Positions 15,359 through 59,285 of a stretch of DNA of 64,000 nt are shown here, one piece after another. The notes under the pieces are model-generated. The model saw nothing but the letters and a program-made list of their open reading frames with translations. It did not search any database and had not been told where the DNA came from. This stretch comes from Liolophura sinensis (lineage: Eukaryota > Mollusca > Polyplacophora > Chitonida > Chitonidae): positions 22,761,501-22,825,500 of the forward strand of contig NC_088303.1 of NCBI RefSeq assembly GCF_032854445.1. The letters are read 5' to 3'. The number at the start of each line of letters is the position of its first letter. Positions within the stretch are counted from its first letter, which is position 1. Made by a program: the position numbers and the translations under genes.

Positions 15359-17121
15359 CTAAATAAACTGTGGATGTGGTAGTTGCAGAGCACTAGTATT
15401 ATTGACGTAACTTTTCGTGCGCGTGAATTGTGTATAGCCTGGGGATTTCATTGGAATGATGTGGTGATGATACGGCGGCACGAGATCTCTGTGGTAGTTT
15501 CTTTCAGAAAAGTTTGTCGTGCTCTTCCTGAGACAGTTTGTTCTGGTGCCCTCGATGATGGAAGAAGCGTCAGGTAGGATTTCGCCCTCCTCTCTATCAT
15601 TACTTTCCGTTTGAGTTTGCTGAATGTCTTTGGTCCACTCTCTTGGATTTAACACGGGCTGTAATCCGGAGTTTCCCCAGTTGCTTTTATGGTGACTTTT
15701 CATGTGGCATTTCAGACTTGTTCTCTGAGAGAACGACTTTCCACAGAGCGTACAGGAGAACGGTTTCTCTCCTGTGTGCAGCCTCATGTGTGACTTCAGG
15801 TAACCTCGCTCCGCGAATCGCTTACCACAGATTGTACACAGCTGGGGTTTCTCTCCTGTGTGTCGTCTCTGGTGTCGATGTAGCTCGACTAATTGTCTGA
15901 ACGCTGCATCACACATCGTACACTTGAACGGCATTTCCCCTGTGTGGGTACGCAGATGGTTTTGGAAGGCTGTGCGTTGCTTGAAAGCCTTACCACATTC
16001 GTTACAAAGGTATGGTCTTTCTCCAGTGTGGACGCGATCATGGAGTCTAAGCGCCGAGGCGTTTGGAAAAGTCTTGTCGCAGGTCTCACACCGGTGGCTA
16101 TGAGCACGGATATTCCTACCATTCCCAGTCCGGTTCCATCGGAACGGCAGAACGCCTTCTATGGCTTCTTTGTGTAGCTGAAGATGAAGTCGCAGCTCAG
16201 TAAAAGTCGCGAAACTCTCTGAGCAATTGCCACAATCGTAGCACTTAAGCGTATCCACTCCACTTTCTGATGTTATATTTGGAGATCCTGGTCTTGATTT
16301 CCTTGGTCTGCCACGTTTCCGTGGGCTTACTTTTTCTTCAACCGAGTTTAAGCTATTTTCATGGCCTTTTTGGGATTCATTTCTAGGTTTCCGATATTTA
16401 CTGGCTTTATCTGCCTTTTGAATTTTGCATTTGCTACCATGTTTATGATTCCTCTGCGGCAATGCAATTGTCACACTACGCTGGGCACATTTCGGGGCAC
16501 CTTCTATTGCTAGTTTGTGTTGTTGTAAATGAAACCTCAGCTCTCTAAATGTTGCAAAACTTTCCCTACAGTTACCACAGTCGAACTCTTTTCGTTGAAC
16601 AACATCTGAAGCCATCGTGGTAACATCTTTACTGCCACAATGTACAGTTCTTTTCTTCCTTGTGACACCATCTTTGTTAGAAGGCATTATAGGTTTTTCT
16701 TGCGCCAAAGCAGAATTCATGGACAGTGGTACAGTTTGCGCAAGCTGTTCACCATTTCTTAATTGAGATTGTCCTTCTTCACCCTGCTGCAGATGGATGG
16801 TTTCTGATGCTTCCTCATCTAATTCCTTCTTCATGATACTCTGGCCTCCGGTTTTCGGCACTTGGCCATCCGAATGTCTGTCACCAATCTTAAATAAATC
16901 TGGCGCTATTTGGATGGCACCTACATTATCATCATCTGCCTCACAATCATCCGCATCGGACATTTCCACAGAGGAACAACCTTTGGAATTACAATCTGAA
17001 TGGTTCATCAACACACTTGGACTGATGTCGTCATTCTTGAAGTCATCACCTTCGTCACAAGACTGCGTTGTCGATCCGTGACGTGACAGAGATAATCTTG
17101 GCATTTCACACTTTCTCAACC
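15359..17121 (-). CDS. Seven-finger C2H2 zinc-finger protein (paralogue 1), main exon
   Basis: With its first exon this encodes a predicted 619-residue nuclear DNA-binding protein. In full-protein numbering there is an acidic, serine-rich N-terminal region, an isolated degenerate finger (about 212-234, CGNC..FATFRELR), an AT-hook-like patch RKRGRPRKSRP (about 300-310), a second isolated finger (about 327-349), then five tandem C2H2 fingers (about 377-510) joined by TGEKP-type linkers, and a His/Pro-rich C-terminus. The exon opens at TTTTCAG in phase 1; upstream in-frame ATG in the intron is not the start. Fingers 4 and 5 of the array are identical in their base-contact positions to those of the plus-strand paralogue at 26.7-28.5 kb. 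I do not recognise a named orthologue; a transcriptional regulator is the expected role. Confidence 0.93.
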
Positions 17122-19265
17122 CTGAAAACATATTTGAAATATATAATTCTCACAAGATGCAGAACCGTTGCTTTGAATTGACCAGTAACAACGTCGGGAT
17201 CTACACGTCGCACTTGATATATGTCTTTGATTTTCTATGAATAAATAATTTATACAGTAAATTTGCTGAGATGTTATATTTGCTGTTTTCTGCCATCCAC
17301 CTGTGGCCTTCTGTCTGATGCTGAGAAAAATGGTTGTAACGAAACTAAGAGATCTAAGTAAGACAAAAACCGTGATGCATGCATGATTTTTATTAAAATA
17401 ATATACATGTAATATCAGAAGTTCATTACCTAGAAGTATGCAACTTCCCTATAGCTAGTCTCCGTGACACTTTACGCTTTTCCTCGACCTCTAACACATT
17501 ACGTGACGTATCTGCGCAGCCATGTATTTTTTTTCTTTCTATTGCGCAGTAAACGTTTAAGAAACGGCTGATGCATGGTTGGAAAAATGTTCCACATGCT
17601 GTTGTGTAGAAAAAGACTTTAAAAATTACGACAACGGACAGTCAATTGGTTCTTAACTGCACAGCAACAATGATTAGGGACATCGTAAGTTTCGGTTTCA
17701 GAGTTTCGGTTTCAAGTTGTGGCCAGTTCTTATAGGAGGCGTTTACATTAGATTTCCCATGATTCAGTTCACAATTTCCACCCAAGACGTTGGCATATTT
17801 GGCATACTTGGTTCGGGTTATTCGTTCAGCAAGATTAATATCCCAACGCGGTCGTTTCTGTCACACTCATTGACGTGTGGTAATCAAATGATGTTGATTT
17901 TTATATTCTGTTGAACTCTAGTGCGCTTACGAAGCAAGGGCGTCGCCAGATGGCGTAGCCTAGACAATCGTGTGACATTATTCGTCGTTATTGTTACATG
18001 ATTGGTCCATATGGGCTGGCGACACCACGTTTCCGAATAATCGTAAACGCCTCTAGTGTCTGGGTACAAAAAAAAGACGTACTGAGAAATTCACTATTAC
18101 CCAATTACTAGTGTAGAAAGGCCCAGAACCTATAATCTGACATTCGGAATAACAAGCATAACAGCACAAGATAAACAGGCCAAACACCCGGGATTCGACA
18201 TAATGATTAATAATCTATCAAACTGAAGCTCATAATTAAAATGGCTAAATCACATTTATTAGTGTTTTTGACAAACAAATTCTCTGTTGTTTCAAAACCC
18301 TAAACCTTTAGCCTTTCTTGGATGCTAGGGTATTTATCTGTACAACATAATTGTACTGGGCATTAATTATGATAACAAAACTGTCTTATATAGGAAATCA
18401 GAATCTACTCTAACTGGCTGCTACGTTTAATATATATATCTATTTAAAACAAAGGTGAACTGATGATTGACTAAAATCAGAACGATCTTGGGTCTGATTT
18501 ATTCAAAAGAGCTGAATAACTGCACACAAATTTATGACGGATGTATTTCTGAACATCTGGAAGCTTGCCTCTTTAGAAAACATTTATGCTGGCATTATAT
18601 TAAACAGGGCGTAAATAGACTACACGACTGAGAGCAACTGTTCTTTTTACAGACTGGAAGCAACTGGAAAGCACCCGATCGGACGCTGATTTTACTCAAT
18701 TAACGTAAATTTGCAGTCTGGCTCAGCAGTTTCTGGGCGCCGAACATGTCCTACAATTCTGTGACTGGAAGCATCCAGTTGTGTCCAGTTCCGTCGATCT
18801 ACGCGTGCCTGCGCCACAGTTGGTCAAAGTTGCTCACGATCAGAAGGTTTGGTCAATCTTTAGAACAGATGCGTAAAGCTCCGCATACAAGAGAGATTGA
18901 GACCCGACTCGACTCAACTCAACTCAACTGGTCGTATGGAGTTGGTCCCAGTCGCTGATTGCCCTACGACTTTAGGACTGACTGGCATACAAGTAACGAG
19001 TGGAGTAGAACTTCAGTTCAGTCGCGTCGTTAGTTCACATACAGGATCGCTCAGGACCCCATACAACATGTCGACTCGAGCTGAGTCCTAAGCTCTCGTG
19101 TATACCCGTTTTTTTTTCTCCTGAAAGTCAACATTCTCGAGTTGGAACCACTTACATGTACTTCCGGTCGCAACAAGATCTACTCCCGGCTTTAGACATG
19201 CTTTTAAGTGAATTCAGACACATAATCTGACACCATATCATGTTACAGGTGTCCTAAACACTTAC
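17122..19265 (-). other. Intron of zinc-finger paralogue 1
   Basis: A 2.1-kb intron between the first coding exon (donor GTAAGTG) and the main exon (acceptor TTTTCAG). It contains no SINE or tandem array that I can recognise. A weak inverted pair, AGGCGTTTAC near 17736 and its complement near 18050, might mark a small DNA element, but this is too short to call. Confidence 0.85.
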
Positions 19266-19362
19266 CTGCAATTATGAACTTCCATTTATGTTCAGCAAAG
19301 ACATCTCTGATAGCTTTCTCTTGCAGCCTGTTGACGACAAGTGTCAGTTCATATAGCTTCAT
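19266..19362 (-). CDS. Zinc-finger paralogue 1, first coding exon (conserved N-terminal module)
   Basis: This exon encodes 32 residues beginning MKLYELTLVVNRLQEKA and ending KFIIA, plus one base of a Gly codon completed by the next exon. The donor is CAGGTAAGTG. The peptide matches the first exon of the plus-strand paralogue at 28 of 33 positions, with the same length, the same phase and the same downstream splice, which is strong evidence that it is real although it is too short to stand out as an open frame. The ATG at 19362 was chosen because the two upstream ATGs in frame (19467 and 19458) run into a TGA. I do not recognise this module as a named domain; it is mixed hydrophobic/charged and looks helical, so a dimerisation or cofactor-binding role is possible. 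Confidence 0.85.
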
Positions 19363-19518
19363 GCTTCCCTGCAGCTTGTTGCAAATCAGTGTCAGTTTAT
19401 ACAGCCCCAAACCATCTCAAAGCCTGTTGAAATCCATACTAATTTCATACAGCTCCATGCTTTCCATCTTGGCTTGGACCATTAACTTGGACGTCTTTTA
19501 TGACGGTCTTCTTTCCTC
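19363..19518 (-). promoter_or_regulatory. 5' UTR of zinc-finger paralogue 1 with an in-frame tandem triplication
   Basis: Upstream of the ATG the exon continues to a likely acceptor (CGTTTTACAG, exon side 19518), implying a further 5' non-coding exon. Positions 19363-19458 are two diverged 48-bp copies of the sequence that begins the coding region (copies start at 19458, 19410 and 19362). Copy 1 reads MELYEISMDFNRL then TGA; copy 2 reads LGLYKLTLICNKLQGS and runs in frame into the true ATG. The region therefore looks like former or duplicated coding sequence now acting as leader. Confidence 0.8.
19417..19467 (-). CDS. Upstream ORF resembling the protein's own N-terminus
   Basis: The ORF spans ATG at 19467 to TGA at 19419-19417 and encodes 16 residues: MESMELYEISMDFNRL. 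It lies in frame with, and 55 bases before, the zinc-finger start. The plus-strand paralogue begins MGGMELYE at the equivalent place, so this is probably the ancestral start region. Whether it is translated is unknown; if so it would force leaky scanning or reinitiation at 19362. Confidence 0.45.
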   Translation of the reverse strand: MESMELYEISMDFNRL

Positions 19519-19574
19519 CTGTAAAACGAGAAATATGGAAAACAATCAAATGATAAGAAGGAAGAGGGTGTGGC

Positions 19575-20015
19575 TTGGAACATTGTATGTAATGGACAGT
19601 GTCCTTCAGAACAGAGGGTGTCGCATGTAACAGACAGTGTCATTCAGTGTCCTATGTAACAGACGGTTTCATTGGGAACGGAGAGTGCCATATGTAACAA
19701 GCAGTGTCGTTCGGAACACGGGGAACTCGTATGTCCGGAACAGTCTGTCGTCTGGTATTAATATCAACAGTGTGTCGTTCACAATAGAGGGTGTCGTTCG
19801 AAATAGAGAGTGTTGTATGCAAAAGAAGGGTCATTCGAAAAAAAGATTGTCACGTAAACTGTTTGAAATGTCTGCAGCAGTGGTTGTTTGGGGCAGATGG
19901 TGTCGATTGGAACACAAGGCGTTGCATAAACATTGGCTTTTTTTGGAACAGCTGTCGATCAGGACAAGGTGTGTCGACTGGATCACAGGGTGTTGTTTGG
20001 TGCTCTTCTGTACAG
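19575..20015. repeat. Degenerate GTGTCGTT-type minisatellite
   Basis: There is recurrent, irregularly spaced (about 20-28 bp) sequence of the type AGTGTCGTTCGGAACACGGG with many variants. It lies just upstream of the first exon(s) of zinc-finger paralogue 1, in its promoter or first intron. Open frames on both strands here reflect the repeat. Confidence 0.7.
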
Positions 20016-20656
20016 TGAGACCAAAGAGAATTTCTGAAAATCAACATCCACTGATGTATACACTAATTGCACAGGTATTTAGTACAAGGTTTAAAATCGT
20101 GCCTTTCGCGCAGCAGTACAGAACAGGGGAAACCCTGTCAAGTTTTGCACACTAATGTTCTCATCCTTGTCAAATACTAAACTTGACAGCCCAAAACGTC
20201 ATTTAATTCAGTCGAACAAGATGTTCACATAGAAGTAAATTTCTCACAAATACATGTCTGTGTTGTAACATTATAATGGCACTGGAGTTAAATTTCGCCA
20301 CAATATGGATTACACATTGCCGCGTTAAGCCATGATCATTCCTTCACTGGATGAAATCTGTTATTTTCTTTTCTCTCTACACAGATTTGTTGGGGACAAT
20401 TCTACGCGGGTTTCAGCAGATTGAAAGGAAAGGGATTGATGACCAATTCTTAACATCTTAATATTAGCAGCCAGAAGTCCCCAGGCATGTCACATGAATT
20501 ACTGTTGTGTCACACCCTAGATATGTTAGATGTATTACTTTACTCTAGTTACAGGACAGTTTACTGATGGAAAAGCACGACTCAACATTATCCTGTATAT
20601 ATAAATAGTCCATGACCTCAACCTTACCGAGCTGGTAATACCTCCACATTTACACC

Positions 20657-20778
20657 ACACATATTGGGAAAATCTTTCTTATGGATATACATCTTCTTGG
20701 CTTATCAACACCACATTTCCATGTAGTTAGTAACATGGTTATCAAGTGAATGACATCAACACATTAAGAGTTTAAATA
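20657..20778 (-). repeat. Left inverted repeat flanking the Penelope-like remnant
   Basis: The reverse complement of this segment matches 21366-21434: shared blocks are TTGATGTCATTCACTT and GTATATCCATAAGAAAGA, then TTTCCCA. The right copy lacks about 65 internal bases. Inverted partial copies at one end are a known feature of Penelope-like insertions. Confidence 0.75.
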
Positions 20779-20941
20779 CAACAACTGTCAATGGGTAGAA
20801 TAATGCACAAACACATCTGTATACTGTCTTCACCCACCTGAATGGACACCCAGCAGACAAAGAAATAGAAGCCAGACCATGCTGAAATCCCACCTGCAGG
20901 CTACAGGAAAGAGAGAAGCCACCAAGCCCCAACCACTCAAA

Positions 20942-21257
20942 GGAGTTGTATACCAAATAAAATGCACTTGAAACTTATCCTACATCGGAGAAACTGGAAG
21001 GCTCCTTGAAACTCTAGTTAGGAAACATAACTCAACCGTAGAAAAATCTGATTCCAAATCCGCCATAAGTGACCACATCCAAGAAAATCCTTGCCACAAC
21101 ATCAACTGGAACACAGTCACATCACTGAACTCCAATCATCCCAACTGGTAGAAACGGAAACTACAGGAAGCTATCTAGGTTAAGAGATTAAAGCCAAGCC
21201 TGAACAGATATCAAGGTTTTTACCTCCCTTCAGCTTATGATCTGATAGTCCTCCAAA
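20942..21257 (+). pseudogene. Penelope-like retroelement remnant, GIY-YIG endonuclease domain
   Basis: One frame reads GVVYQIKC, then SYIGETGRLLETL, RKHN, SAISDHIQE, NINW, KRKLQEAI, KPSLNR and LPSAYDL. These are, in order, the landmarks of the GIY-YIG endonuclease that closes Penelope-like elements (the VYQI..C entry, YIGETGR, a conserved H and N-W block, W-KRK-EA and KPSLNR). Three in-frame stops (after KCT, after NHPNW and after QEAI) show it is dead. The upstream reverse transcriptase is not recognisable; the 160 bp before it are only faintly similar. No intact copy is present in the window. Confidence 0.85.
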
Positions 21258-21365
21258 ACGACAAGGAAGCCCACCGAATCTAAACCTGTTAATCCCTTAA
21301 TACCAGAGTACTGCTTAATCACATCTATCCCTTGTTCTACCCATGGACATTAGTTTCTCTAGTTG

Positions 21366-21434
21366 ATATATTTAAGTTCTTAATGTTTTGATGTCATTCA
21401 CTTTGTATATCCATAAGAAAGACTTTCCCAGTGT
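21366..21434 (+). repeat. Right inverted repeat flanking the Penelope-like remnant
   Basis: This matches the reverse complement of 20657-20778 with a gap of about 65 bp. It lies about 110 bp past the endonuclease remnant, where the element's 3' untranslated end is expected. Confidence 0.75.
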
Positions 21435-21654
21435 ACTTCCTTCCCAACTTCTAATGCCACTCAAACATACCACGCATATTTACTAATGTCTACATGGACT
21501 GCTTCCTACCAAGATTATAAATTTAATAAAGTATTTAATCAAGTATTTTAAGGTATTTAATTACACAATGTATGGCTATGAATCAGTCAAGGGCCCTGGT
21601 GTGCTCAATCGACTAAAGCATTGGAGCCAATTGGTCCCTAATTTGGATAGACTT

Positions 21655-21776
21655 GCAATGCGAATAAGCATACAATACGAATAAGCATACAATACGAATA
21701 AGCATACAACACGAATGAGCATACAACACAAATGAGCATACAATGTGAATAACCATACAATGCGAATAAGCATACA
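21655..21776. repeat. 18-bp minisatellite, about 6.5 copies
   Basis: The unit is ACGAATAAGCATACAAT with variants (AATGAGCATACAACAC and AATAACCATACAATGC). It is divisible by three, so it also leaves an open frame on the minus strand. Confidence 0.9.
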
Positions 21777-22363
21777 GAAAAGACTGTTTTTCAGTCCTGT
21801 CTTTTATTTCTGGGCAAAAACTATCTCCCTAACAACATCACCATTTGCCATGGGTATAGCCCAGACTATCACAGATTTGATACTGTGGTAAAGCCAAATA
21901 GCCAAGACATCGATCCGGGTCAGCTTTTTCAACAAGTCTGTTTTGAGAGACTTGTTTTTGATCGCAAACTACATCTGGGCATGTGCGTGTTCCCACCATT
22001 TACCGGGAGTAACAGTTGACATGTATCAGCATCTAGTTATCAATTATCTGCTGAGGTAAGGTAAGGGTAAAGCTTTTCAAATAATAAACAGTTTTGAAAC
22101 AGCATATTACAAACGGTAAGTCGCTAAGGGTCTCCTGATGTCAGATATCTGCAAATTTGTTTTCAACCATATCTTAGTATATATTAACATAGTTCAACAC
22201 TAAAAGGCTAAAAATAATTGCTTTTTAACATTGAATATATATACCAAACATACATAAAACCACCAGCAATAAAGATTAATCTAATTATGTTCAAAGACAA
22301 TGGCATGTACCAAAGAGCATATCTCTTTGTATTTCTCATATGTATAAACTATCATGTAAAACC

Positions 22364-22660
22364 ACCCTCAAGTGATTTATTTATTTATTTACTTCATTGG
22401 TGTTTTACGCCGTACTCCAGAATATTTCACTTATACGATGGCGGCCAACATTATGGTGGGAGGGAACCGGGCAGAGCCCGGGGGAAACCCACGACCATCC
22501 GCAGGTTGTTGGCAGACCTTCCCACTTACAGCCGGAGAGGAAGCCAGCATTAGCTGGACTTGAACTCACAGCAACCGCATTGATGAGAGGCTCCTGGGTC
22601 ATTACGCTGCGCTAGACCGCTAACCAATTGAGCCACGGAGGCCCCCCCGACCCTCAAGTG
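22364..22660 (-). mobile_element. Full-length SINE family A with target-site duplication
   Basis: The element occupies 22375-22649 (275 bp), minus orientation. The two flanks are perfect 11-bp repeats ACCCTCAAGTG at 22364-22374 and 22650-22660, the signature of LINE-type target-primed insertion. Read 5' to 3' on the minus strand: a run of C/G, GGCCTCCGTGGCTCAATTGG with an A box (TGGCTCAATTGG), a B box (GAGTTCAAGTCC), the middle AACCTGCGGATGGTCGTGGG, the tail AAGTGAAATATTCTGGAGTA then CGGCGTAAAACACCAATGAA, and a short TAAATAAATAAAT end. It is a non-autonomous RNA polymerase III element and needs an unseen partner LINE. Confidence 0.95.
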
Positions 22661-23634
22661 TTAATATAAGGCACCCCGCATGTGTTTTTGAAAATATCAT
22701 ATATAACATTACTAAAAAGCTAAATAAATGTAACCAAAATAGATCGTAAACTTTGGACGATTAATTTGTCACTGTCATTGTTTAAAATTTCCCAAAACGT
22801 GCGTAGGGTGTCCTAGAGGGATGTACAAGGCTTGTTTTGAGTCGCTGCCTGCGTCATTAGTGGTAACATTCATAACGTTCTGCATGTTCTTGTTCCATTG
22901 TCTTACCATATAATTAGAAAGGTTTTAATTAGTCTATAGTCTTTATATGATCAGTGTACTCTATTTGTTATGGGGTTTTTTTTGATGGGTTGGTTGATGT
23001 GATGTGTAACATAGAGACCAATATATCGTTAAATACAGATATGCACATTTTCTGACAAAAGTCACATCAGGATACCCTTAACACGTACCGGTATTCCACT
23101 TTCTGGACTGATGCCGCAGAATGATGTTCCTTGCCATGTTGTGGGTGACAGACACAGTGTGCGATCAGGTACAAGTCTCAGATTTGACTTCTTCAAAACA
23201 TCAACTTGAAACAGCGGCACATTGCCATGTTTACAACATTCCTTATTTTGTTAACGAGAAAACAACAACTGACAGAGCCTACAGTTCGCCAGTTGTCAAG
23301 TTTCACTTACCGCATCAAATCTTTGCCACTAATCAAAAATGGTCAAAACAACTTTTACATATGTGGAAAATGTTAGACAAAGAGAATAATGGCTTAATGG
23401 TAAAGTACCATGGCACAAAATGCCAAGAAAACGCAACGTCTTTGGAATAGAAATAGCTGTTTTGTATCATCAATATCAGGGTGCGCGCGGCTACAGTTGT
23501 TACATTAAAATTCAAATTGCAGTAACTTACGAAACGGACTTAAAATTGATGTTAAAATTCTTATATGTAGATTGACTGATGAAAAGTTGATCAATTAGGA
23601 TACTGTTATCACAGGTCCGCTGTTATATTAGAGA

Positions 23635-23715
23635 AAAACTCTGGATTCGAATCCACTACCTGAGCTTCAGTCACGGCAAAGCAGCGCTTTAACACCATTT
23701 GAGCCATTAGCCATT
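23635..23715 (-). repeat. Possible tRNA-like SINE head
   Basis: On the minus strand TAATGGCTCAAATGG is A-box-like and is followed about 45 bases later by GGATTCGAATCC, a perfect B-box-like palindrome. No cloverleaf can be closed into a credible tRNA, and no core or tail of families A or B follows. It is probably a decayed SINE head. Confidence 0.4.
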
Positions 23716-25062
23716 AGATATGATGAATATTATAGTCTTGATGTTAAAGCTGCTGAGCCAATCCTCTGCACAGTCTTGGTCTAGGCTGGGACTATTATAT
23801 ACTATAGTCGTAGGTCAAGGTTAAAACAAAGCAAATTCAACCCAGGTGAAATAGGCATTGCGAAAGATTTAGTATAAAACATGAAAAATATAGAATTTGG
23901 GTAAGACTTTCTTTCCGGAAAAGTATTCAGAATGTGTCTCGCCTTCAAATATGATAGCGTCGGTGTCCTGTGTCACTTTGAGCGTTAGGAATCGGCGAAA
24001 ATCAGGACTTCGCCAATTTGGCTCCATGTTATCACCTCCTTCTCCAAGCCAGGAACACGGGAGCTCAATACTATGAATAAGTGACAGGGGGCTTATATAT
24101 AGCGATATCCATTTAGGTATAACAGGAATGAATTATATAGATTGACTTCACAACAAGTAATACACATACAAATTAAGTTCAGTCAGAATGTTTTGTGAGG
24201 GGTTTTTTTTTTGGGGGGGGGGGTTTATGATCAATATAGCCTATACCGCTGATCCCAGTGTGTATCGATTCGAGCCAGACGTACACATCTGATTTGTCCT
24301 TCGATATCAAAGGAGACAAAAAGAAATTATGGCCGCATTTATGTTTTACACGTCTTGAAAAGTGATCCTCGTAAGCAAATATGCTCATATGGATTTTAGT
24401 TTTATAAACAGTTATGCAGACTAAGCCGAATCATATATTAACCTTTGCAACACGTACGATACATGAACACAAACTACATACCGGTATTTCAAATAAAGCA
24501 AGTGAATCGATGCTGGAGTTGTAACACTCCGTATTCTACTTTTGACAGACATGAATAGGAAAAATAATGTTACGTGCACTATACTGAACAGCACGCGAAT
24601 CCGGTTTCATACTTTAATAACGAAAGTCCTTTCCGTTTTTAATACCATTTTTATACTTTATTAGCCGACGCGCGATAAGGACATGGCCACCAGCTGTCAG
24701 GTTTTATTTTGCTTAACGTATTTTGGCCACACCTTTTAAAATTCAAAACAACGTGAAAAGCATATCTGGCAGAAGGAAAGCTTAATCTTCTCTAGATTTG
24801 CACAGCGTTATATCGTGGTAAGTGATATTTAAATAGTGTATGTCTAACTCATTTATGTTGCTGGAATTGATAATTTGTTGTTGGTGAACACGTCAAATCA
24901 TCAGGTCAAGTCAGTGACTCTCTGATTACACACACCGGTGGTGTGTTCAAACGCGATCTTTTACGGCACGATAAAATGAGACAGAAGTCATATAAAGCGA
25001 GTGGTTGCTTCAGTTCGTGTGCCGCTTTAACAGTTATATATTTGTCTTATTGTTGTTTTAAA

Positions 25063-25098
25063 GGTTGTTTTACGCCGCACTCAAGAATATTTCACTTG
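25063..25098 (-). repeat. SINE family A tail fragment
   Basis: GGTTGTTTTACGCCGCACTC then AAGAATATTTCACTTGG matches the family A tail. Nothing else of the element remains. Confidence 0.75.
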
Positions 25099-25546
25099 GA
25101 GTACAGCGTAGCTCTGTAGGGCTGTGATTACGTATACTATAAATTCTGTAAGCTTACCTTAAACACCTCTGTACTTCCCTTGCTGGCTTTAACATACTAC
25201 TGCTGGGCACCAAGTAATTTGTCTGTCCGTAGTCATAGTCGTCCCAGCTTTCAATTCCAGGTAGGTGTTCCCATGTGTCATCACTAATAAATCTGCACAA
25301 GCATGAAACTCGATAAATTCTAACTCCAGCTGCCAAAGGGAACTTTTATGTTGGCGTTCAGAAATGTGAGTTTGAGAGACATGGATGGACTCAAACGTTG
25401 GTAGTATAGTGGTATGAAAATATGAGAAATATGTGCAGTTTTCTGCTTAAATAAAATATCTCCTGCAGTGTATATTGTTATAAACTGTCAAATATCATCA
25501 TGATTTGTTTTACTTTTTTATTTTATTTTCCCTACCCACCTAACAG

Positions 25547-25590
25547 AGACATTGATTGTAATTGTGTACACCTGATGTTAGATGGGAGGA
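25547..25590 (+). promoter_or_regulatory. 5' UTR part of the first coding exon, zinc-finger paralogue 2
   Basis: The exon side of a likely acceptor (CCCACCTAACAG) begins at 25547, implying a further 5' non-coding exon. TAG at 25579 closes the frame immediately before the first ATG (25582). The next ATG at 25591 has G at -3 and +4 and gives exactly the same 32-residue module as the paralogue; starting at 25582 adds only MGG. Confidence 0.65.
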
Positions 25591-25687
25591 ATGGAACTGT
25601 ATGAACTGACTCTGGTTGTCAATAGGCTGCAAGAGAAAGCTATCAGAGATGTCTTTGATCAACATGGGTGGCAGTTTATAATTGCAG
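25591..25687 (+). CDS. Zinc-finger paralogue 2, first coding exon (conserved N-terminal module)
   Basis: This exon encodes MELYELTLVVNRLQEKA...WQFIIA (32 residues) and one base of Gly, then donor GCAGGTATGT. It joins the main exon in phase 1 to give ...FIIAGVKHC. It matches the first exon of paralogue 1 at 28 of 33 residues; the differences are at positions 2, 23, 24, 26 and 28. Translation may start three codons earlier, at 25582. A SINE begins 43 bp after the donor without disturbing it. I do not recognise the module as a named domain. Confidence 0.87.
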
Positions 25688-26710
25688 GTATGTATTTAAG
25701 ACATCATGCCCTTATCAGATGATGTGACTGGCCCGGATAGCACAGTTGGTAGAGCGTCCGCTTCGGGACCGGTAGATCCAGGATCAATCCTTGATCAAGT
25801 CACACCTAAGGCTTTAAAAGAGGAAGTTGTAACTTCCTCGCTTGGCGTTCAGCATGAAGGGGATAGTGCAATGACTGATTGACCCGTATCAGTATAATGG
25901 CTCGGGCTCGGGCGGGGCGTCTTACTTGCCTTCGGTAAGTCATCTCAGTGAAGCAGCTTACGAAGAGATGTTAAACTTAAGTAAAAATTTCAAACCTTAA
26001 ATCTGTTATATTTTATATAACAAGGTCAAAATATTGCTTGGCAACGTAAGTTCTGGGTAAGCTGTTGTACAACAAATTTCAGCTAGTACAACAGAAAGGA
26101 ACATACTAAATTTAATGCTTGAAGTTTTAACTTAAGTCTAAGATTGCTTCAGGATCCCAAACCCTGCGCGCCTTTAGTCATAGCAGCTATTACTATAAAA
26201 TCATTACATAAGCCTTGTTCATATTTCCAGTTTTGTTTTGTAAGACCCAACATTTTGAAGCCTTAGGAAATCAGCAACGTTGAGTTTGTTACATCACAAT
26301 TTACATGTGATGATTCAAAGTTCCTTGTGATGTCATGTTTCGCCAGCATTTCAATGCAGTGAGCTCAGACTGCAGGTCTGCATATTATTTGCAAACATTA
26401 ATGACGTATTGAGCCTGCACAAAAATCTGAAGAAGACCTTTTGTGAGACTCCAATGTTAAGCACAAAAGAATTTACAATCATTTAGTATCACAGAATACA
26501 GGTTATGTTGATGTTTGGGCTGTGACTCTTGACAGTGTTTGAAATGATAAAGCTTAAGTGGTTCCACTTAAGTTGTGACTCCCTGCTCCATTTAGGTGTG
26601 TGTCACTGCTTTAGTGTACTGGTACATTGTAGATGAAAAATCCAGAGGACAGATCATACATGTAAGTTAAGTATAGAAAACAAATCAGCCTTTATTAAAA
26701 TCTGTTTCAG
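25688..26710 (+). other. Intron of zinc-finger paralogue 2
   Basis: A 1,023-bp intron with a GTATGT donor and a TCTGTTTCAG acceptor. It carries a family B SINE near its 5' end; the rest is unique. It is shorter than the equivalent 2.1-kb intron of paralogue 1, but its position and phase are the same. Confidence 0.9.
25731..25982 (+). repeat. SINE family B (subtype 2), internally deleted
   Basis: The tRNA-like head GCCCGGATAGCACAGTTGGT and AGAGCGTCCGCTTCGGGACC is followed by a B-box-like GGATCAATCC. Next come AACTTCCTCGCTTGGCGTTC, AGCATGAAGGGGATAGTGCA, CCCGTATCAGTATAATGGCT, CTTACTTGCCTTCGGTAAGT and CATCTCAGTGAAGCAGC, then a shortened tail (GATGTTAAACTTAAG). The same order occurs at 33948-34294. 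It is not a functional tRNA gene. Confidence 0.88.
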
Positions 26711-28473
26711 GAGTGAAACATTGTGCAATCACCAGGTTACCACTGCCAAATCGCATTCCATCTGACAGTAAAGATGAGCCAGAGCATTGCTTAACCAAAG
26801 GAACTAATGTGGAGGAAGAGGCTACAGAAGCAAACATGGGTAAAGAGTACTCACTGGTATCCATGGAGGTCAAAAAGTTATCAGATGATGAATATGTGGA
26901 TGTTGATGATGGTGCAGACCTCCCAAATACTCCAGGCTCTTCAGATTACAGCCCTACCATATCTGAAGATGATGACAATGATGCAGATTTCCATGTTCAA
27001 ATGAAGAAAGTTAGATCTGTTGAAGAGAAGAAAATAAAGCAAAACAGACAATGTAGACACACTCGAAAAATGCATGGTAGTTCAAAAATTAAACGCTCAG
27101 AGGGCAGACAATTGCATAAACAGCAGACTTCATCAACCACACCTGTAGAAAAGGACATGCCTAATTCTGTTATTAAGGATAAGGCTGAAGAAACTGGAAC
27201 TACTCTTTCAGAAGAATTCCAGTGTCGGAATTGCAGCGAAAGTTTCCGAACCTTCCGAGATTTTCGTCTTCATCTAGCCAATCATAAGCTTGCAAACAGC
27301 GAGGTCAGGAAGTCAACAAGTACCCTGGGTAAATTCATTCCTAGACGAAAAGGTATGCCTAAGAAATTTAGAGCTAGTGAACAGCACAGTAGGGTAAACA
27401 TAAAAGTGGAAAGTCCATGTAAGTTTTCAGCTTTGACAGGTGATGAAGAAGAGAAGAAATCCTCTTCTACTATTGACATGCCTGTGAGTGACAATGCAGA
27501 AATTGGTACGAGCAATTCGCAGGAGTTCCCTTGTGGTGTTTGTTCTGAAGTGTTTGCCACCTTCAGGAAATTGCGTCTCCATCTACAGGGACATAAAGAA
27601 TCTGCTGATGTCCCTTTGAGTTCCCCAGCAAAGAGAAAATCAGACATGCCAGTGAGGAGAATCACTGCACAAAGCAGGGTATGTGAAATTTGTGGGAAGA
27701 GCTTCCCTAATGCTGCAGCACTCAGGGTTCATGACCGTGTCCACACTGGGGAGAGACCTTATCTCTGTAACCAGTGCGGAAAAGCCTTTAAGCAAGTCTC
27801 AGCTTTTCAAAGCCATCTGCGCACCCACACAGGGGAAACCCCATTCAAATGCACGACATGTGAGGCAGCTTTCAGACAATTAGGTGAGCTACATCGACAC
27901 CAGAGACGACACACAGGAGAGAAACCCCAGCTATGTACGATCTGCGGTAAGCGATTCGCGGAGCGAGGTTACCTGAAGTCACACATGAGGCTGCACACAG
28001 GAGAGAAACCGTTCTCCTGTGCACTGTGTGACAAGTCTTTCTCTCAGAGAACAAGTCTGAAATGCCACATGAAAAGTCACCACAAAAACAGCTGGGAACA
28101 CTCACGACGTATGCCAGTTCCTGGAGATGGCAGCAGAAACGAAGCCTTCAGCCTCCCCAGAAACAATACGCTAGAAGACGGGGAGATCCAACCAGAACTT
28201 ACTGGCCTCATTCCCATGGACTCCCAAAAACAAAGTAAGCAAGACCATGTTAACAGCCCTGCAAAAATTGATCCAAAAATTGAAGTACCACTGTCAGCCT
28301 ATCAGCCACAGTTAATTCCACCTGACCCTACAGTCTATAATCAGCATGTGAAGAGTTACAACACCAACGCCAATCTTCCCCTGTCAACGTACCCACCATT
28401 CACCCACCTGGACTCAAATGTTCACTCATGGATGCATTTTCATGGAGATCTGAATGGGACTGGTGTTTATTAA
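26711..28473 (+). CDS. Seven-finger C2H2 zinc-finger protein (paralogue 2), main exon
   Basis: With its first exon this predicts a 619-residue protein. In full numbering there is an acidic stretch (about 90-125, many Asp/Glu), a basic linker, an isolated finger at about 202-224 (CRNCSESFRTFRDFRLH), a second at about 305-327 (CGVCSEVFATFRKLRLH), then five tandem C2H2 fingers at about 356-490 with TGE-P linkers, and a Pro-rich tail. Architecture, intron position and even exon length (1,763 bp) equal those of paralogue 1, but the AT-hook-like patch is missing here. The first triplet of this frame is GTG (Val), an internal codon, not a start. The array can contact about 15 bp; F4 and F5 contact residues are identical to paralogue 1 and F2/F3 nearly so. 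A sequence-specific transcription factor is inferred. Confidence 0.94.
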
Positions 28474-41934: not shown

Positions 41935-42408
41935 TCACAAGCACGTGTTTTCGTCCACTATACGTTTGCACTCCTTACACTTCACATAACAGCACCAGTG
42001 AAATTTGCACAAACAGCGTTCAACAATTTCAATTTTTCTTGTTTTGTGACCTCGTCCACAGCACATCAAATCGCAGCCATCGATAGCCTTGGAGGTCCCG
42101 TTACATATCCTTCCCGTTGTCCCTAGTGAGCCTATCTTGGGGTTAGTGTCGCAGTAGTCAGGGGAAGGAACCAAGTAAACCAAATCCTCAGGCGTATGAG
42201 GTTTGAAATTCGCGTTTCGCGGAACCAATCGTTTGGCACTCCCTATTCTTTTGGGACTCAGAGTAACTTCCGTTGCACCGTCAAACTTTTCTTTCAGTCT
42301 TCGACCAATTTCCCGGAAAGAAGGCATGGCTTTCCAGCATGTCTTCATTTCGCATGAACCAGACACTCCGTGACATTTGCACTCGACTTTCATGAGGTCT
42401 TCGACTGA
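41935..42408 (-). CDS. Wnt4: Wnt4 ligand, last coding exon
   Basis: This exon encodes the C-terminal 157 residues and TAG of a secreted, lipid-modified Wnt ligand that signals through Frizzled receptors. The exon opens after TTTTTCAG in phase 0 with [19 protein letters not shown]; the Ser in HGVSGSC is the conserved acylation site of the family, needed for secretion and receptor binding. Further landmarks: [39 protein letters not shown] (a glycosylation site and a strong Wnt4-type signature), CCGRGH and the Cys-rich end [13 protein letters not shown]. Sixteen cysteines lie in this exon. Similarity is better to Wnt4 than to any other subfamily I can recall, hence the symbol. The final residues are ENTCL. 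No defect is seen. Confidence 0.96.
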
Positions 42409-44519
42409 CTGAAAAAGACAGCAAACAGATAAATTATAATATGTTTGACAGGACATGAAATATTAAACAATGAACGAACAAATCCGACTCAATGCCACTT
42501 TGGTAATACTGCAGCCTTTGTGGCGAGAGCATGTTTTTATCAGGAGACAGTAATCGTTTAAAGTTCGATAATTATAACATCCAAAATTAAAAACAGACGG
42601 ACATGTTTGAAAACAGCTTAAACGTCAGTTGAAATTCGACGTGTTATATCGTGATGTCCAATACAGGCTACATATGATTCGATACGTTGATATAAAGTTA
42701 ACAAATATTCCTCATATGACTAGTAGCTAATATGATGTTCTTTTAAATAAGGGGCGAAGATTTACAGATTTTGTTCTGGGATCAAAACAAAACAACCACT
42801 GATGTCTACATAGCAATGAAACCAGACTTTAAAGGGGGAGGGGGGTGCCAGCCTGAGATGCCAGGGGTGGGATGACAGTTTAGGAGTGGGGATCAACACA
42901 TGTCCAATTGGCCACACGTAATTTATGAGACCATTAAGATTTTACGCGGTGATAAGACAATGGTTTATGTGAAAGCTTGGTGCAGTAATGTCTGGTTTAA
43001 TGTCACGGTGTGGTCGTTTCCATGGTGGTAAAGGGCTGAGCGTCACGGCCTGATTACCCGAGGGGTTCCTCCCCTCCCACGCAAGGCCATGCACCCACGG
43101 AGCTTACTTACACTCAACCTGTAACAGGCTCTGTAAGATGAGAAAATAATGATCGGGAGCCGGATGAGCTGATGATCAACAACGACAAGATCCTCATGTG
43201 AGGAGTGCCCCATGAGTGATGAATGGGGATATAGTTTAACATAGTTTGATCTAGGGGACGTATACATAAAGTTATGTAAACACGTACAGTGTATGTCGTT
43301 ATCATTGCACAGTATTGCTAAAATCTGAGCTACATTCGTATACCAATCGCCAACTATAACGGCCAGGTTCCAGGTCAATTATCGCAGACCAATTTTCAAA
43401 ACCAAGATTAACATAAACCAACAAGAAAATGTATGAAGTAAGGATTGAGGGTGGAGTCATGTAATTTACAAAAAGCAGTCAACAGTTATCAATGATGTCG
43501 GAGAGACACGAGAAATGGTCAGGGCAACGTGGAAATAACAAGTGCACAAAAAATCAGACTGGTAAAGCAACAGCTTCATTTAAACTACAACCCAACAAGC
43601 TATTATTGCCAAGCAAGTTATTGACCAAACAGTACAGGCTGGCTCACGCTTAGACAATCGGAGACAAGGATGAAAGGTAGGGACTAATTCTCAGCTTGTT
43701 TACGACAAGATGCCTACACAGAAGCATCGGCATGATTTCCTACAATGTTTCAATAGACATATATTGTTTCCACGACCGCATCTCACGTGCGTCGAGGTCA
43801 AAAGATGAGGTCAAGAAGCAATTAGCTCACAAAGATGACGGCAAGAGAGCACAGGTGTGCAGAGAAGGAATAATGAAAGAGTTTTATCTAAAATACCACG
43901 GACACATTGGAACACACCGATGATAAATACAAGCGGATGTGGACTTCCCGTGGATCATTTACCGAGTAGTTCTCCAGGGATACCACAGTTGTGCTACAGA
44001 TGTGCCTAACAAAAAAGACAGTGGTACATGGGTGGATAAATATAATATAGCACAACAAAAACACAACTCACACAGAGTGTATTAAACCCTGTTCAGTGAG
44101 TCTACTCCAAAGCCAGGCAAGGTGTCGACCATTATGTACCCGCTGGAAGCATTCCCTTTTGGGCGGTTTACGAAGGACATGTTAACAGCTTTTTGCCGCA
44201 TGTAATTGTTTCTTCTGCCACACAGTCCCTCCGACTCCACCCATACTTGCAATATCCAAGCATAACAATTTCGTAAAATTAGGTAATGCACTCCTTGAAA
44301 GCCTGAGTTGATTTCAGTAATTTTCCGCATTTTTATCCTGTAGCATACAGAAGGCTTCCATAAATTCTTATATTTCTGTTGCACTATTGTACGCAAGTCT
44401 GCGTCGCTTGCCAGGAATAGGTTGGTGTGAGAAGGTCAATTGACTTTTATTTCAAGCAAAAAACATATTAGGAAATTTTAGTTTCCTTCCTTTCAAACTC
44501 GTCTCTCATGACAACACCT

Positions 44520-45305
44520 GTGAGCCTTGGTAAATGAATAAAGAGTGCTATACAGGATCTCATAAACCTTAACCTATTGACAAGTAATGTCAGACAAGAT
44601 CATATGAACCTTAGCCAATGGACATGTGATATCATGCAAGATCCTGCGAACCTTAGCCAATGGACATGTGATATCATGCAAGATCCTGTGAACCTTAGCC
44701 AATGAACAATACACGTCAGACTATGCCATATGAACCATTGGCGATATACAAGGGATATAATAAAAAAAAAATCGCATGATCCTTAACCAATGTATAAGAC
44801 ACATCAGACAAGATTCTTAAGGTGAACCTTAACCAGTGGACAACAAACAGTGCAAAACTATATGAACCATAGCAAATAGACAAGAAAAATCAGACAAGGT
44901 CGCATAAACCCTAGCCAGTGAACAAGTCACATCAGACAAGACCATATAAATCATAGTAAATGTACACGGAATATCACGAAACACCCTATAAACATTAGCT
45001 AATTAATGAAAAAGAGTATTAAGTTCAGGCCATCAGCCGACAAAACAATATCCAAAGCCAAAATCCCTCAAATCTGTTACATCCATAATAATATCATTAT
45101 CTCTAAAAATACAAATGTATATGTATATAATTTTACCGGCAGGTAGTAACCTGGGAATAAAAGTAGTCAGGAGTTCCAAATGCTGTCTGACAGACATGAG
45201 TCTTAACCTGCTGACAAGGGATACTTCATTTATATACCTGATCGTTGTTAAACGCCATACTAGACAAGGGATATCAGAGATGATCCTATGAACTTTAAAC
45301 CACCG
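44520..45305. repeat. Degenerate 42-bp minisatellite in Wnt4 intron
   Basis: The two best copies are an exact 42-bp period (GAACCTTAGCCAATGGACAT then GTGATATCATGCAAGATCCT) at 44606-44690. Older copies with AACCTTAACCAGTGGACAA, CAGACAAGATC and similar blocks extend on both sides with irregular spacing. Confidence 0.8.
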
Positions 45306-56910: not shown

Positions 56911-59285
56911 AGTAAGTGCAGTATTATGTGATGGTTGTTTAATTTGGGGTCGTCATTAGGAGGTAGTGGATGTAAGATCGACACTTAGTGCAGTATTATG
57001 TGATGGCTGGTGCCCTTTGTGTCGTCATTAGGAGGTAGTGGATGTAAGATCGACACTTAGTGCAGTATTATGTGATGGCTGGTGCCCTTTGTGTCGTCAT
57101 TAGGAGGTAGTGGATGTAAGATCGACACTTAGTGCAGTATTATGTGATGGCTGGTGCCCTTTGTGTCGTCATTAGGAGATAGTGGATGTAAGATCGACAC
57201 TTAGTGCAGTATTATGTGATGGCTGGTGCCTTTTGTGTCGTCATTAGGAGGTAGTGGATGTAAGATCGACACTTAGTGCAGTATTATGTAATGGCTGGTG
57301 CCCTTTGTGTCGTCATTAGGAGGTAGTGGATGTAAAATCAACACTTAGTGCAGTATTATGTGATGGCTGGTGCCCTTTGTGTCGTCATTAGGAGGTAGTG
57401 GATGTAAGATCAACACTTAGTGCAGTATTATGTGATGGCTGGTGCTCTTTGTGTCGTCATTAGGAGATAGTGGACGTAAGATCGACACTTAGTGCAGTAT
57501 TATGTGATGGCTGGTGCCCTTTGTGTCGTCATTAGGAGGTAGTGGACGTAAGATCGACACTTAGTGCAGTATTATGTGATGGCTGGTGCCCTTTGTGTCG
57601 TCATTAGGAGGTAGTGGATGTAAGATCGACACTTAGTACAGTATTATGTAATGGCTGGTGCCCTTTGTGTCGTCATTAGGAGGTAGTGGATGTAAAATCA
57701 ACACTTAGTGCAGTATTATGTGATGGCTGGTGCCCTTTGTGTCGTCATTAGGAGGTAGTGGATGTAAGATCAACACTTGGTGCAGTATTATGTGATGGCT
57801 GGTGCTCTTTGTGTCGTCATTAGGAGATAGTGGACGTAAGATCAAGACTTAGCGCAGTATTATGTGATGGCTGGTGCCCTTTGTGTCATCATTAGGAGGC
57901 AGTGGACGAAAGATCAATACTTAATGCAGTATTATGTGATGGCTGGTGCCCTTTGTGTCGTCATTAGGAGGTAGTGGATGTAAGATCAACACTTAGTGCA
58001 GTATTATGTGATGGTTGGTGCCCTTTGTATCGTCATTAGGAGGTAGTGGATGTAAGATTGACACTTAGTGCAGTATTATGTGATGGCTGGTGCCCTTTGT
58101 GTCGTCATTAGGAGATAGCGGACGTAAGATCAACACTTAGTGCAGTATTATGTGATGGCTGGTGCCCTTTGTGTCGTCATTAGGAGATAGTGGATGTAAG
58201 ATCAATACTTAATGCAGTATTATGTGATGGCTGGTGCCCTTTGTATCGTCATTAGGAGGTAGTGGATGTAAGATTGACACTTAGTGCAGTATTATGTGAT
58301 GGCTGGTGCCCTTTGTGTCGTCATTAGGAGGTAGTGGATGTAAGATCGACACTTAGTGCAGTATTATGTGATGGCTGGTGCCCTTTGTGTCGTCATTAGG
58401 AGATAGTGGACGTAAGATCGACACTTAGTGCAGTATTATGTGATGGCTGGTGCCCTTTGTGTCGTCATTAGGAGGTAGTGGATGTAAGATCAACACTTAG
58501 TGCAGTATTATGTGATGACTGGTGCCCTTTGTGTCGTCATTAGGAGATAGTGGACGTAAGATCAATACTTAATTCAGTATTATGTGATGGCTGGTGCCCT
58601 TTGTGTCGTCATTAGGAGGTAGCGGATGTAAGATCGACACTTAGTGCAGTATTATGTGATGGCTGGTGCCCTTTGTGTCGTCATTAGGAGATAGTGGATG
58701 TAAGATCAATACTTAATTCAGTATTATGTGATGGCTGGTGCCCTTTGTGTCGTCATTAGGAGGTAGTGGACGTAAGATCGACACTTAGTGCAGTATTATA
58801 TGATGGCTAGAGCCTTTTTGTGTCGTCATTAGGAGGTAGTGGATGTAAGATCAACACTTAGTGCAGTATTATGTGATGACTGGTGCCCTTTGTGTCGTCA
58901 TTAGGAGGTAGTGGATGTAAGATCGACACTTAGTGCAGTATTATGTGATGGCTGGTGCCCTTTGTGTCGTCATTAGGAGGTAGTGGATGTAAGATCGACA
59001 CTTAGTGCAGTATTATGTGATGGCTGGTGCCCTTTGTGTCGTCATTAGGAGGTAGTGGATGTAAGATCAACACTTAGCGCTGTATTATGTGATGGTTGGT
59101 GCCCTTTGTGTCATCATTAGGAGGTAGTGGACGAAAGATCAATACTTAATGCAGTATTATGTGATGGTTGGTGCCCTTTGTGTTGCCATCAGGAGGTAGT
59201 GGACACAAGATCAACACTTTGTGTAGTAGATGGTTGGTGCCCTTTGTGTTGCCATCAGGAGGTAGTGGACGCAAGATCAACACAA
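56911..59285. repeat. 72-bp satellite array, about 33 copies, with 360-bp higher-order duplication
   Basis: The unit is GTGATGGCTGGTGCCCTTTG, TGTCGTCATTAGGAGGTAGT, GGATGTAAGATCGACACTTA, GTGCAGTATTAT. Most copies differ by only one to four bases. Variant patterns recur exactly 360 bp (five units) apart: ATGTAATGGCTGG at 57287 and 57647, TGTAAAATCAACAC at 57331 and 57691, GGTGCTCTTTG at 57441 and 57801. The first unit (56911-56960) and the last three (59080-59285) are diverged; the last ones carry GCCATCAGGAG instead of GTCATTAGGAG. It starts about 370 bp from the Wnt4 exon. Confidence 0.96.

Follow-up and report, generated by a model that had tools for sequence, protein, structure and literature searches.

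Threefold tandem repeat across the start region of a probable chiton zinc-finger gene, with a candidate uORF derived from the N-terminal codons

A unit of 48 bases occurs three times head to tail on the minus strand across the start region of one of two zinc-finger paralogues of the chiton Liolophura sinensis (NC_088303.1). Within the window, i.e. the whole analysed stretch of 64,000 bases, the units occupy 19458-19411 (copy 1), 19410-19363 (copy 2) and 19362-19315 (copy 3). From the comparison with the single unit of the second paralogue we consider it likely that the start region underwent an old expansion, with copy 3 being maintained by selection and copies 1 and 2 forming a drifting leader that carries an upstream open reading frame (uORF) by descent.

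The pairwise identities of the units were 28/48 for copies 1 and 2, 30/48 for copies 1 and 3 and 32/48 for copies 2 and 3. The best 48-base match among 200 mononucleotide shuffles of a 601-base region, compared at lags of 30-99, was 28. The peak of the repeat itself in this region was 33. The overall best of the region, 35, was not assigned to a place or lag; an unrelated degenerate array within the region likewise reached 33 at lag 48 (peak at 19691). A sequence-only reading of the window had described three 16-codon units starting at 19458, 19410 and 19362 on the minus strand, and identities of 28 to 32 out of 48, with shuffles at or below 28, bear this out.

At lag 48 the array scored 61/96 over 96 bases. 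The window was then scanned at lags of 20-120 with omission of 22 merged Tandem Repeats Finder arrays, including margins of 150 bases, and of the array's own stretch. Fifty-two positions scored at least 58/96; 24 of them were matches at lag 42 (44859-44882), just past the margin of a 42-base array at 44565-44708, and the other 28 were matches at lag 84 within both zinc-finger exons (15686-15722 and 27893), where 84 bases is the length of the finger repeat. Outside the omitted stretches, comparable scores in the window were confined to the zinc-finger repeats and the edge of the known 42-base array. The lag-48 likeness spans about 19470 to 19320 with background level on either side. The array is absent from the list of Tandem Repeats Finder, a tool with a stated limit of about 70% likeness. 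Adjacent copies, constant spacing and a likeness beyond chance, as expected of a tandem duplication, were all present and confirm that the repeat is real.

Other arrays were seen in the window. Degenerate short units such as GACACTGTCTGTTACAT extend over 19541-20000 (minus reading), upstream of the paralogue 1 exon, and Tandem Repeats Finder covers parts of them (19618-19673 and 19772-19813). At 56915-59283 the same tool found 33 copies of a 72-base unit with 93% matches.

As judged by the paralogue, copy 3 is the coding copy. It was identical to the paralogue unit in 41/48 bases, and six of its seven differences were at third codon positions (1, 0 and 6 at first, second and third positions). 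Copies 1 and 2 each agreed in 33/48 bases with differences spread over the codon positions (5, 4, 6 and 4, 5, 6, respectively). Over 13 codons the amino-acid identity of copy 3 to the paralogue exceeded a neutral null with random placement of differences (P 0.0022), that of copies 1 and 2 did not (P 0.50 and 0.67). The excess of third-position differences in copy 3 over copies 1 and 2 taken together had a one-sided Fisher P of 0.037, all these comparisons being based on small samples of 48 bases per copy and two paralogues. Hence copies 1 and 2 look like neutrally drifting leader sequence. Because their BLOSUM similarity to the paralogue was slightly over the neutral mean (P 0.098 and 0.104), a weak or past coding constraint on them is possible. 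The assignment of the third unit as the true beginning of paralogue 1 thus held up. The proposed best fit of the paralogue exon to copy 1 did not, given 41/48 for copy 3 versus 33/48 for copy 1. Only the nine bases ahead of the inner ATG favoured copy 1 (6/9 versus 5/9), a prefix too short to support such a fit.

In paralogue 2 we place the matching exon at 25547-25687 on the plus strand; it holds one unit only and two ATGs, 25582 and 25591. The latter, flanked by G at both -3 and +4, has the best context of the paralogue, and its counterpart is 19362. The context of the former is weaker (T at -3, G at +4), and an in-frame TAG directly precedes it. Thus the start of the protein need not have moved, and the paralogue lends no support to the suggestion that the ancestral start was at 19467. 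From the likeness of MGG to MES, the outer ATG is a possible ancestral start. The upstream part of the paralogue exon aligned with the leader of paralogue 1 no better than chance in three placings (P 0.086, 0.669 and 0.643), which leaves the left edge of the expansion and the ancestral start unfixed. Paralogue 2 also has an out-of-frame ATG ahead of its start, at 25575, so paralogue 1 is not alone in having upstream ATGs.

The first exon joins in the same phase to a zinc-finger exon in both paralogues, at 15359-17121 (minus) in paralogue 1 and at 26711-28473 (plus) in paralogue 2. Both zinc-finger exons were matched by Pfam C2H2 models, and the gene with the repeat is probably a zinc-finger gene. 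The genome (609,464,459 bases in 632 contigs) was searched with the first-exon peptide of paralogue 2, which matched at just these two loci at E up to 10, and with a 265-base DNA query, which matched itself and the paralogue exon. Because only two loci carry the exon genome-wide, by protein and by DNA, a dispersed repeat or mobile element was rejected. Two hand-typed N-terminal exon peptides gave no Pfam match near the cut-off (one a DegS match below it with E 0.12, the other none), and a PDB sequence search with a 77-residue query from paralogue 2 gave nothing with an E of 10 or less; the idea that the N-terminal exon encodes a known domain was rejected on these grounds. NCBIfam gave no match for three proteins, as expected of a prokaryote library.

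Three further observations concern other sequences. In the intron of paralogue 2, the stretch 25722-25990 has by eye a tRNA-like head and a tail that suggest a SINE; ARAGORN found no tRNA in it. COX1 matched seven times on a single contig, at intervals of about 15.5 kb, and once on a contig of 15,209 bases; it has internal TGA codons and is open under the invertebrate mitochondrial code. The repeated COX1 is probably tandem mitochondrial sequence, an assembly artefact or otherwise. The last exon of a Wnt gene is located at 41935-42456 on the minus strand (Pfam wnt, E 6.1e-65), which we take to be most like Wnt4.

The candidate uORF comprises 16 codons and a TGA at 19417-19467 (minus); it has 13 codons when read from 19458 and 21 from 19482. 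The ATGs at 19467 and 19458 and the TGA ending at 19417 were present as first read, and copy 2 indeed has no ATG and is open into copy 3. From either ATG the frame is thus closed by a stop that lies 54 bases before the main start at 19362, and both ATGs are flanked by A at -3 and G at +4. The first reading had missed two more in-frame ATGs (19482 and 19437) and two out-of-frame ones (19448 and 19415), bringing those between an acceptor-like site at 19518 and 19362 to six. The frame of 19482, 19467, 19458 and 19437 ends at 19417, that of 19448 and 19415 at 19392. Provided that the leader is part of the mRNA, the view of a leader uORF copying the N-terminus of the protein is supported, the likeness being due to common descent by duplication. 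With its good start contexts the 16-codon uORF may dampen translation, and a positional damping by the leader is plausible. The comparison of 13 codons with the paralogue, a weak one, gave no clear sign of selection on the uORF peptide. Apart from the likeness to the protein, which descent accounts for, nothing here speaks for a role of the peptide. The idea of a self-mimicking micropeptide, i.e. a uORF product that copies the conserved N-terminal segment of the zinc-finger protein, competes for its partner and limits its own gene through ribosome capture plus a decoy peptide, appears extremely improbable. A structured RNA leader was rejected: the fold of 19263-19518 was not unusual (z-score -0.37), and Rfam gave no match at the gathering score over 19200-26000.

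As to the age of the expansion, at the seven sites where copy 3 differs from the paralogue copies 1 and 2 both carry the paralogue base at four and the base of copy 3 at two, with one site split. Because they share the paralogue base at four of the seven, the data fit an expansion before most of the changes in copy 3, close to or later than the split of the paralogues; one older than the split, with subsequent loss in paralogue 2, is possible. Jukes-Cantor distances of 0.44-0.61 between the copies versus 1.0 between the paralogues (96 fourfold sites) suggest that the expansion is younger than the split or near it in age, but the sample is too small for a dependable date.

The first proposal of a tandem expansion that crosses the start region in frame is supported, and the following sequence of events would account for the data. 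In one paralogue, an old tandem expansion of the 48-base unit over the start codon and the first codons would have produced three in-frame copies. Copy 3, contiguous with the remaining coding exon, would have stayed under purifying selection and would supply the start at 19362, with the upstream copies 1 and 2 turning into 5' leader and drifting. In copy 1, two well-placed ATGs and the TGA end would have been retained, making it a uORF through descent. On an mRNA that includes the leader, scanning ribosomes would meet several upstream ATGs before 19362, which would therefore be reached by leaky scanning or reinitiation. The leader would then probably lower translation independently of the peptide.

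Much depends on the extent of the exon. Its coding part in paralogue 1 presumably is 19266-19362 (minus); the GTAAGT donor that follows ranks at the 99.99th percentile among the window's GT sites. The coding part is identical to the coding exon of paralogue 2 in 83/97 bases with 4, 2 and 8 differences at first, second and third codon positions. The whole exon would reach from this donor to the acceptor-like site (19266-19518). Splice sites were scored with generic weights, not ones drawn from chiton data, and acceptors were ranked among the 7,199 AG sites of the window. The acceptor-like site at 19518 was at the 99.83rd percentile and its paralogue counterpart at 25547 at the 99.53rd, which suggests that a single exon holds all three copies. 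Yet both zinc-finger exon acceptors were at about the 95th percentile, as modest as a site at 19327 inside copy 3 (95.5), so the scores are a guide rather than proof. There is a small but appreciable chance that copies 1 and 2 lie outside the mature mRNA, owing to a downstream transcript start or to splicing at the CTGCAG (19368), and that no uORF exists. The AG of this motif, with C at -3 and G at +1, is six bases ahead of the start at 19362, and neutral drift of copies 1 and 2 is also compatible with intron or intergenic DNA. However, CTGCAG ranked only at the 80.8th percentile versus 99.83 for 19518, and the paralogue has its strong acceptor-like site at a similar distance upstream of its start. 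Splicing at this weak site, which had been named as the case that would refute the leader, thus looks unlikely from the sequence.

A slightly slimmer chance is given to a regulatory role under selection, in which the uORF would repress the zinc-finger protein through its position and its ATGs would be kept by selection. The favourable contexts of 19467 and 19458 agree with this, as does the greater conservation of uORF start codons over uORF coding regions stated in a survey of 478 eukaryotes, although the same paper describes uORFs as generally deleterious and depleted (PMC7889888). That the repeats are N-terminal coding sequence, with readthrough of the TGA or near-cognate initiation after it yielding a longer protein of two or three units, is very unlikely. 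Between copies 1 and 2 there is just one TGA, and copy 2 is open into copy 3; yet a neutrally drifted copy with this degree of divergence stays open with a probability of 0.61 and two such copies hold at most one stop with 0.75, so the open frame needs no explanation, and the differences in copies 1 and 2 do not cluster at third positions. Thus we favor the view of an old start-region expansion with a leader uORF by descent.

The chiton repeat is ordinary turnover of a start region. It offers an example of how a single event, the tandem duplication of a start region in frame, can create a uORF, and paralogue 2, which keeps one copy, serves for comparison. Should the leader be present in transcripts, whether uORFs of such origin affect translation could be put to the test here; if it is not, the repeat is ordinary sequence turnover. 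A narrow phrase search of the literature had no start-codon duplication among the titles of the 15 papers listed out of 370, which is not evidence that the phenomenon is unreported. The candidate uORF resembles the canonical uORFs of eukaryotic 5' leaders in being a short frame that starts at an ATG of its own and stops before the main start, and in a coding part that appears to behave neutrally, as uORF coding regions do overall, less than 1% of which might encode conserved peptides (PMC7889888). It differs in its origin, tandem duplication of N-terminal codons of the gene itself and not point mutation. With a diverged minisatellite-like tandem duplication in an exon it shares short head-to-tail units at a constant spacing of 48 bases, but the chiton array has only three units, one of which is still coding and spans the start codon.
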